From: Cyclobacteriaceae bacterium
GTDB taxonomy: Bacteria; Bacteroidota; Bacteroidia; Cytophagales; Cyclobacteriaceae
Assembly (NCBI GenBank): GCA_016787605.1
Contig: JAEUUE010000108.1
Span: 1-45,484, forward strand
Direction of reading: 5' to 3'
DNA: 45,484 nt
Part shown: positions 12,837 to 13,480 of the stretch, one piece after another
Position numbering within the stretch: the stretch's first letter is position 1
Layout: each line of letters starts with the position of its first letter
Notes under the pieces: generated by a model
Database searches by the model: none
Told to the model about the DNA's origin: nothing
The model's input: the letters and a program-made list of their open reading frames with translations, nothing else
Position numbers and translations under genes: made by a program

Positions 12837-12881
12837 AGAGCCCCCTGTCGGAATCGAACCAACGACCTACTGATTACAAGT
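12837..12881 (-). repeat. attR: tRNA 3' half copy (45-bp direct repeat)
   Basis: Identical over 45 bp to 7934-7978. In the usual mode of tRNA integration this copy comes from the element and restores the tRNA 3' half, while the left copy is the displaced host sequence. Confidence 0.93.
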
Positions 12882-12911
12882 CAGTTGCTCTACCAGCTGA
12901 GCTAAGGAGGC
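12839..12911 (-). tRNA. trnT: tRNA-Thr (anticodon TGT)
   Basis: The minus strand folds as a 73-nt tRNA: acceptor GCCTCCT/AGGGGGC, D arm GCTC...GAGC, anticodon stem ACTGA/TCAGT with loop CTTGTAA (anticodon TGT, threonine), and T arm GTTGG-TTCGATT-CCGAC. CCA is not encoded. A perfect Bacteroidota promoter lies 13 bp upstream and a terminator follows 70 bp downstream. Elements are integrated on both sides, with both sets of repeats meeting in the anticodon loop. Confidence 0.97.
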
Positions 12912-12954
12912 TAAAAGGAGGTGCAAAAATAGGGTAAAGTGGCGGTTATGCAAA
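12879..12954 (-). repeat. Promoter plus tRNA-Thr 5' half, inner copy
   Basis: This 76-bp stretch reads, in the tRNA direction, from the -33 box through the -7 box to tRNA nucleotide 33. It is repeated at 13390-13480, where only a 3-to-18-bp replacement in the D loop differs. The two copies flank the GIY-YIG insert. Confidence 0.92.
12924..12954 (-). promoter_or_regulatory. Promoter of tRNA-Thr
   Basis: On the minus strand TTTG (12954-12951), a 19-nt spacer and TATTTTTG (12931-12924) match the Bacteroidota consensus TTTG-N19-TAnnTTTG exactly. The tRNA starts 13 nt after the -7 box. The same promoter is duplicated at 13450-13480. Confidence 0.85.
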
Positions 12955-13389
12955 CCCCTAAATAGTGAGGGTGCTTTGCTCCAGCTTTATTGAAACCTTG
13001 ATTTTAGGGATTCTAGCAGCTCAGGATACCTAGCCAGGTTCCTGAAATATTGGGTTGATTTCATTGACTTTATGTGTCGTTCAATTTTCAGCGCTTGTTT
13101 TCTCGATTTGCACTCAATAACTAGAACAAGCTACCAATCACTGGCCCTTTTAGTGTAGCTTCTGCGAAAAGGAAAGTGGTTATGCCGATGGAGTCTTTCT
13201 AGAAGATCAATTGTTTGACCCACATAGTACTTGTCCAAAGACTTTGAGAATACTATATACACAACCACCTCATCAAGGTATCAGGTTTTATCGGGCAGGA
13301 TGTGCTTTCAGAAAAATAGTCAGGAAAATTGCGCCACGCTTGTACGGAAAACCTGTTCCAAAAAATGTTTATGAGCTCGAAAAAGTGGG
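12955..13389. mobile_element. Small GIY-YIG insert in the 5' side of tRNA-Thr
   Basis: This 435-bp, AT-richer stretch lies between two copies of the tRNA promoter plus 5' half (12879-12954 and 13390-13480). It contains one disrupted GIY-YIG nuclease gene and about 120 bp of leader. The layout is that of an insertion that carried its own promoter and tRNA 5' half, so that the tRNA gene was rebuilt. A tandem duplication with later decay is the alternative. Confidence 0.6.
12987..13268 (-). pseudogene. GIY-YIG nuclease gene with an in-frame TAG
   Basis: Read on the minus strand from a GTG at 13268-13266, the frame gives VVVYIVFSKSLDKYYVGQT, the GIY-YIG core with the YI and YYVG motifs. A basic LLERLHRHN region with the conserved Arg follows, then SYTKRASDW, a TAG stop, and LVLVIECKSRKQALKIERHI, then SMKS. 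The family typically has DWELV at the stop, so TAG most likely arose from GAG (Glu). Apart from this the 94-codon frame is intact to its TAA at 12987-12989. Full-length relatives in the URI/YhbQ group are 80-100 residues. The family cuts DNA, often as homing or repair nucleases. Here it is probably dead, unless the stop is read through. Confidence 0.85.
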
Positions 13390-13480
13390 AGTCAGTTGCT
13401 CTACCTCCCGATAACTATCGGGATGAGCTAAGGAGGCTAAAAGGAGGTGCAAAAATAGGGTAAAGTGGCGGTTATGCAAA
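13390..13480 (-). repeat. Promoter plus decayed tRNA-Thr 5' half, outer copy
   Basis: Matches 12879-12954 from tRNA nucleotide 33 back to the -33 box, except that 3 bp of the D loop are replaced by an 18-bp palindrome (13406-13423). The promoter part (TTTG 13480-13477, N19, TATTTTTG 13457-13450) is intact and points toward the GIY-YIG pseudogene. There is no 3' half, so no tRNA can form. Confidence 0.9.
13406..13423. repeat. 18-bp palindromic repeat inside the tRNA remnant
   Basis: TCCCGATAACTATCGGGA replaces AGC of the tRNA D loop. It differs by one base from the perfect palindrome at 35805-35822, so it belongs to a dispersed repeat family. Confidence 0.8.

Follow-up and report, generated by a model that had tools for sequence, protein, structure and literature searches.

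Hairpin-tagged GIY-YIG nuclease genes beside bacterial tRNA genes, an apparently undescribed and widespread kind of putative minimal mobile element

Introduction

Small GIY-YIG nuclease genes that lie beside tRNA genes are known from T-even phages, which encode the free-standing Seg homing endonucleases (PMC13096335, PMC2988022). According to the accessible part of a report from 2026, SegB adjoins tRNAs in phages, shows a statistical association with tRNAs in phage genomes and drives the tandem amplification of a tRNA segment (PMC13096335); the accessible parts of the Seg accounts show no second, hairpin-bearing copy of a tRNA. In fungal mitochondria, mobile open reading frames (mORFs) supply the host gene with a new 3' end and push the native end aside, and the endonuclease gene comes to lie between the rebuilt host gene and the displaced duplicate of its end, with Allomyces atp6 as the example cited in the excerpts available (PMC3630166). 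The available excerpts on REP sequences and RAYTs describe short palindromes that are tied to a nuclease gene and that include non-autonomous copies (PMC8266576, PMC3733652), and one further excerpted source is related prior art (PMC1564403). No description of the three-part arrangement reported here, consisting of a tRNA gene, a GIY-YIG gene and a hairpin-bearing copy of the tRNA, was found in the open-access literature that was searched, and hairpin-tagged nuclease elements on tRNA genes are apparently a widespread and undescribed kind of minimal mobile element.

The locus from which this analysis sets out lies in a stretch of 45,484 nucleotides, hereafter the window, from a Cyclobacteriaceae bacterium (assembly GCA_016787605.1, contig JAEUUE010000108.1, positions 1 to 45,484). 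Unlike the Seg genes, which belong to phages, the elements described here are chromosomal. They share with REP/RAYT systems the association of a short palindrome with a nuclease gene and the existence of copies that lack the gene. RAYT is an HUH (Y1) transposase, however, not a GIY-YIG protein, and we know of no tRNA copies in REP/RAYT systems. Integrative islands that target tRNA genes by means of a tyrosine recombinase duplicate part of the tRNA and rebuild it, and the insert in the window differs from them in being 435 bp long, in containing a hairpin substitution, and in encoding a GIY-YIG protein only, with neither recombinase nor integrase.

Results

The window contains an intact and uninterrupted tRNA-Thr (TGT) gene on the minus strand (12838..12911, ARAGORN). 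Directly 5' of it stands an upstream region of 43 nt (12912..12954, minus strand), and this region together with tRNA nt 1-33 (12879-12954, 76 nt) is repeated at 13390-13480. The repeat unit begins exactly at a TTTG, with TAnnTTTG following 19 nt further on, which we take to be the -33 and -7 boxes of Bacteroidota. Read along the minus strand, the outer copy is composed of the upstream region (13438..13480; TTTG, 19 nt, TATTTTTG), identical to 12912-12954; tRNA nt 1-14 (13424..13437), identical to those of the intact tRNA; a perfect hairpin of 18 nt, TCCCGATAGTTATCGGGA (13406..13423), which on comparison with the intact tRNA stands in place of nt 15-17; and tRNA nt 18-33 (13390..13405), the hairpin flank that faces the element. 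Promoter and tRNA nt 1-14 (57 nt) are 100% identical between the two copies, as are the 16 nt of tRNA nt 18-33, a match that on sequence comparison is far beyond chance. The 435-bp insert with a GIY-YIG frame that the first-pass annotation had placed between the two copies is confirmed (PF01541, E 7.6e-13). Its description of both copies as a 76-bp module running from TTTG to tRNA nt 33 holds for the inner copy, but the outer copy is 91 nt long, because the 18-nt hairpin, which had been overlooked, takes the place of tRNA nt 15-17.

From the outer copy, a spacer of 121 nt leads to the GIY-YIG gene (12987..13268, minus strand), which is followed by 32 nt, the 43-nt upstream region and the tRNA. 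The gene has a GTG start and a TAA stop, and its frame (from 13268) is interrupted at codon 46 by an in-frame TAG (13131-13133); as read it is a pseudogene, and the window copy may be dead. The proposal that the gene is read from the captured tRNA promoter is plausible by position, but the window gene carries this stop. Apart from the GIY-YIG frame, neither a recognisable gene nor a recombinase was found in the 435 bp (12955-13389) by ORF list, translation and Pfam analysis of the frame.

The same tRNA-Thr gene borders a second and distinct element on its 3' side. A separate copy of the tRNA 3' half (nt 31-74; 7935..7978, minus strand) marks the far end of an island of 4.9 kb (7935-12881), which is bounded by copies of nt 31-74 and encodes a tyrosine recombinase (8096..9442, plus strand; Pfam PF00589, 2.6e-16, and PF13102, 6.8e-15), HTH_17 and ORFs of unknown type. 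The island is a classical 3' integration, ordinary in itself, that stands beside an unusual 5' insert in one tRNA-Thr gene; since the 3' half of the tRNA is duplicated as well as the 5' part, the gene has been invaded from both sides. The possibility that the 5' insert is itself a tyrosine-recombinase island was ruled out, as it contains no recombinase and the integrase is encoded in the 3' island. Within the 3' island, an imperfect 34-nt direct repeat with ATCGAACACGGTTCAACTGCA is found at 10249-10354.

A search with the window GIY-YIG protein (in-frame stop read as X, cut-off E<=1e-6) gave matches in 33 of 58 genomes, the genome of the window counted, and one scan of genome contigs gave four loci. 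Among the best-hit loci from 29 other genomes (L016-L044, one per genome), 26 hold a tRNA, on the strand of the GIY-YIG gene. Profile A1 was built from 27 proteins after this link had been noticed. A nearby tRNA accompanies 24 of its 27 rows and is missing from three of the seven L016-L044 loci that were left out, so that the census made with it is possibly enriched for tRNA linkage. All 27 rows match PF01541, which places them in the GIY-YIG superfamily and not among the HUH (Y1) transposases of REP/RAYT. Y14, G16, W44, E62 and K66 are invariant in the 27 members and R24 and H28 are present in at least 90%; we assume that Y14, G16, R24, H28 and E62 are the catalytic residues of the GIY-YIG domain, which is here about 75 residues long. 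The nearest solved relatives by sequence profile are UPF0213 (1zg2, 1ywl) and SLX1, and the profile result links neither to tRNA genes nor to mobility. In Bacteroidota, the phylum of the window, relatives were found in 188 of 296 genomes and 99 of 139 genera, with at most 19 matches per genome. In Verrucomicrobia, the phylum of L048, 42 of 115 genomes match, and a same-strand tRNA lies within 700 bp in 19 of 29 loci. Several of these have a hairpin-bearing copy on one side or on both; in others, no copy scored higher than the null used before. A further difference from Seg is that the protein of L065 had no match in phages by tblastn and only PHROG hits of 2.8e-4 or weaker, with none for four other members.

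The census sample comprises 90 loci (30 + 60, window included), of which 80 have a tRNA gene on the same strand at most 600 bp from the gene or array, and in none is a tRNA present on the opposite strand only. The identical tRNA test applied to UvrC as a control (61 genomes matched) was positive in 0 of 30 loci. In seven of the ten loci without a nearby tRNA, a contig end lies upstream of the gene at a distance of about 450 bp or less; in the other three it does not. One of these three (L122) is an array of seven tandem GIY-YIG genes with a 381-bp unit (1147-3630, oriented), alongside which no tRNA was detected. A partial second copy of the tRNA scores above every reversed-sequence null in 100 of 107 tRNA-bearing loci; in the other seven, L016 included, no second copy exceeded that null. 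Between tRNA and gene, a stem followed by TTTT is present in 52 of 95 loci, and in 36 of 66 loci the gene starts 28-57 nt past the tRNA, by a crude start-codon call. The intact tRNA is continuous, and at the Rfam gathering threshold 20 loci gave hits to tRNA alone, which does not fit a group I intron.

Two orientations occur. The tRNA lies just upstream of the gene in 95 of 123 loci, just downstream, as in the window, in 11, and in neither position in 17. Entry from the 5' side, as first proposed, thus fits the window and a few other loci and lacks support as a general pattern. Partial 5' copies nevertheless recur: they are recognisable in nine of the 11 upstream-type loci, the window counted, flanking the GIY-YIG gene in eight of the ten others (L037, L042, L048, L076, L077, L085, L107 and L124) and absent from L022 and L105. 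They are further cases of the kind whose absence would have refuted the first-pass reading, and they support its idea of a small element with a GIY-YIG gene that attaches to tRNA genes and rebuilds the tRNA through the duplicated part. The copy takes in the promoter region in three loci only, the window (43 nt), L048 (56 nt) and L124 (80 nt, the entire length compared), and the remaining six start 2-15 nt ahead of the tRNA; the captured promoter is therefore real in the window, yet it is not the rule.

Motif hairpins (TCC..GGA, CCCCG..CGGGG and TGGCG..CGCCA) were found in 92 of 100 partial copies, compared with 10 of 100 intact tRNAs (+-25 nt) and 55 of 1616 random windows away from the gene. 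A lax search (stem >=5, loop <=6) was dropped for lack of discrimination, as it returned 98 of 100 copies, 52 of 100 intact tRNAs and 916 of 1636 windows. In the 80 loci with both flanks placed, the tRNA segment lost to the hairpin has a median length of 10 nt (3-31), and the gene-side tRNA part has a median of 15 nt. Stem pair 6, which lies outside the search requirement, is paired in 73 of 73 distinct hairpins, as A-T, C-G or T-A, and pair 7 is paired in 37 of 41.

Where the hairpin stands depends on the tRNA. With placement given as the last tRNA base before and the first base after the hairpin, counted along the tRNA, tRNA-Val has 28/46 in all nine placed loci, from four families and in both orientations; Asp has 50/59 or 51/60 in 11 of 13 loci, Pro 27/45 or 28/46 in six of seven, Arg 27/45 in three of three and Lys 26/42 in two of two, and Met, Gly, Asn and Ala have several placements each. 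The same isoacceptor with the same replaced segment was found in 2-4 families for ten classes; the replaced segment is typical of the tRNA species and common to different families. The anticodon loop, named at first as the entry site, is not a general site because the replaced segment varies with the tRNA. On a tree of 106 GIY-YIG proteins, made from 75 columns and with many unresolved forks, the tRNA label changes 34 times against a shuffled mean of 76.6 (0 of 200 shuffles as low), the placement label 45 times against 52.6 when shuffled within isoacceptor (minimum of 300 shuffles, 48) and the host-family label 39 times against 65.7. Since the phylogeny also tracks host family, the pattern is partly one of vertical descent. 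The window gene is loosely grouped with the other two tRNA-Thr loci, L016 and L065. At differing positions, the dead copies carry 2125 letters of the local tRNA, 52 of another genome's tRNA and 46 of neither, in a count over non-independent pairs that is biased because the flanks were defined by their match to the own tRNA. In this retention of local letters, by the same biased count, and in the hairpin, the elements differ from mORFs, which the excerpts place at mitochondrial protein genes with displaced ends that diverge (PMC3630166).

The orthologous site was followed in 23 same-genus genomes by means of the DUF349 gene that adjoins the window tRNA-Thr. DUF349 loci were found in 20, the window counted, and 17 of these have a tRNA-Thr within 1.5 kb behind the gene; one of the three that do not (L177) is cut by a contig end. 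A GIY-YIG gene is present at two DUF349/tRNA-Thr sites, in the upstream form in the window and in the downstream form in G009. Three of seven same-genus stretches inspected (L173, L176 and L188) have hairpin-bearing 5' copies without the gene, L188 having two in tandem. A pattern of the window-type arrangement was matched in three of 40 same-genus genomes, namely the window, G007, with one copy at the L173 site, and G466, with three copies in tandem, and the hairpins of the latter two have the placement seen in the window, with sequences that differ from that of the window and from each other. In the 3-kb locus of G466 (L285, G466:C114, copies at 1501-1710), neither a GIY-YIG gene nor an intact tRNA-Thr was found. 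Nucleotides 1-33 of the window tRNA equal those of seven tRNAs compared at same-genus DUF349 sites. The first-pass annotation had proposed a nuclease-driven element; hairpin-bearing 5' copies that have no adjoining GIY-YIG gene (L173, L176, L188 and G466) count against this, and the gene therefore need not be in cis. Whole units also form tandem arrays with 98-99% identity, of 315 bp x5 (L055), 322 bp x4.1 (L069), 358 bp x3.2 (L087) and 381 bp x6.9 (L122), and gene-free tandem repeats of 75 bp x2.4 (L188) and 87 bp x3 (L025) occur as well.

Discussion

What might explain a nuclease gene that is placed between an intact tRNA gene and a defective copy of the same tRNA? We favour, with moderate confidence, the explanation that the window insert is one member, here broken, of a large family of minimal putative mobile elements on tRNA genes that spread by break repair between like tRNA genes. 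It builds on what the loci display, which is their anatomy, same-strand placement, isoacceptor-specific clades, hairpin placement, empty and remnant sites and arrays. Let A-B-C stand for the tRNA, with B the segment that characterises the tRNA species. The common form would then read A-B-C, a short GIY-YIG gene E, and a dead copy, a'-h-C, where B has given way to a TCC..GGA hairpin h; the window would have the mirrored form, A-h-c', E, A-B-C. The nuclease would break an uninvaded tRNA gene at B, and repair templated by an occupied allele, through the homology arms A and C, would bring in the gene together with a replacement tRNA part. Because the replacement part would be installed with the gene, the tRNA would survive, and the displaced part would remain with h where B had stood. 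Both orientations could then be viewed as insertion at B that rebuilds the tRNA, and unequal recombination between the repeats would subsequently yield tandem arrays. Homing would be the spreading route, and expression would presumably come from read-through from the tRNA promoter.

An intergenic gene beside its putative target, with presence/absence polymorphism, is in keeping with a homing endonuclease, and in its working the element would resemble a free-standing homing endonuclease or a fungal mORF. We file it as neither, because homing is a presumed step and the intact tRNA of the carrier retains B. The dead copy lacks B, yet the intact neighbouring tRNA keeps it, and B is the predicted cleavage site; plain homing therefore predicts that the carrier cuts itself. 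Mere target-site loss would not need a hairpin of this kind, and this too counts against plain homing. Hairpin copies free of a GIY-YIG gene count against the break-repair explanation that we favour.

Those copies also speak for an alternative that we consider unlikely, a hairpin-end element of the REP/RAYT kind. The nuclease would recognise the TCC..GGA hairpin, as a cruciform or as a single strand, so that the hairpin would be the mobile signal, the tRNA fragments would provide landing homology and the GIY-free copies, found in tandem too, would be non-autonomous. The hairpin ends are common to nearly all tRNA classes whereas B differs, and SLX1, a near solved relative by profile, is a structure-specific nuclease. 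In 61 genomes, TCCCGAN{2,8}TCGGGA occurs 714 times against 111 for a reversed-pattern control, and its count tracks the GIY-YIG count per genome (Spearman 0.69, control 0.01; median 10 with GIY-YIG and 3 without), a correlation that holds among related, non-independent genomes and arises partly because every GIY-YIG locus adds its own hairpins to the count. Against this alternative, no tRNA was found in the 0.8-kb loci of 20 dispersed hairpin sites of G082, and a tRNA is present at two of 29 dispersed sites sampled one per genome. The flanks of dispersed sites formed no special structure, and contact between protein and hairpin is putative. Given these counts, the hairpin may still be a mobile unit or a nuclease signal. 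The notion that dispersed hairpins are centres of larger inverted repeats was rejected, the result being close to the null. In the window, a hairpin, TCCCGATAGCTATCGGGA, is present at 35805-35822 in an apparently intergenic position, one of several dispersed copies in the source genome.

We regard as improbable an RNA device useful to the host, in which the co-transcribed, hairpin-bearing tRNA piece would be a stable RNA (a decoy, attenuator or 3' stabiliser) and the nuclease would be domesticated. Presence at one orthologous tRNA is patchy, arrays occur, the window gene has an in-frame stop, and Rfam recognises nothing other than tRNA in the 20 loci; the same-strand placement would suit such a device, as would stems that differ in sequence and remain paired. 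Among 67 placed downstream loci, the stop codon of the GIY-YIG gene lies within the hairpin in 15, a further point in favour of such a device, before the hairpin in 47 and after it in five. The replaced segments, however, often disrupt tRNA arms, as judged by arm borders that we assumed. Ordinary tandem tRNA duplication followed by decay, with a chance neighbour gene, was already disfavoured and is highly improbable, for although GIY-free partial duplications occur, the arrangement recurs on the same strand in 80 of 90 loci, the clades are isoacceptor-specific and 92 of 100 copies have the hairpin.

Tentatively, the elements could represent a previously unrecognised class of mobile elements of about 300-400 bp, present in at least two bacterial phyla, that consist of a GIY-YIG nuclease gene and a hairpin-substituted fragment of their own tRNA and that have nuclease-free derivatives. 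The hairpin would be the recognition end and the tRNA fragment the address, and essential tRNA genes would be rewritten and rebuilt when the element moves. If spread by break repair between like tRNA genes is correct, many genomes of Bacteroidota (188 of 296 sampled having relatives) host selfish elements on essential genes, each lineage would be adapted to one tRNA species, and the dead tRNA copy would be a record of the target. This would account for the partial, hairpin-bearing tRNA copies and the small GIY-YIG genes of these genomes, and it would make testable how a nuclease parasitises tRNA genes without killing the cell. Many short nucleases would be on offer, with a predicted site that can be read from the locus. 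The elements would also be a chromosomal counterpart of the link between SegB and tRNAs in phages, as that link appears in the accessible part of the report (PMC13096335).

Targets may extend beyond tRNAs. When 16 loci without a nearby tRNA were analysed with Rfam, L202 proved to contain a tmRNA and L209 a partial tRNA at its end; in L202, from the genome of L048, a GIY-YIG relative (885-1240) lies about 260 bp from the tmRNA gene. In L205, two minus-strand stretches beside GIY-YIG genes (1328-1399 and 1821-1892) pass the Rfam tRNA threshold at 32.4 bits, and in the same locus a hairpin follows nt 8 of a tRNA-Pro copy.
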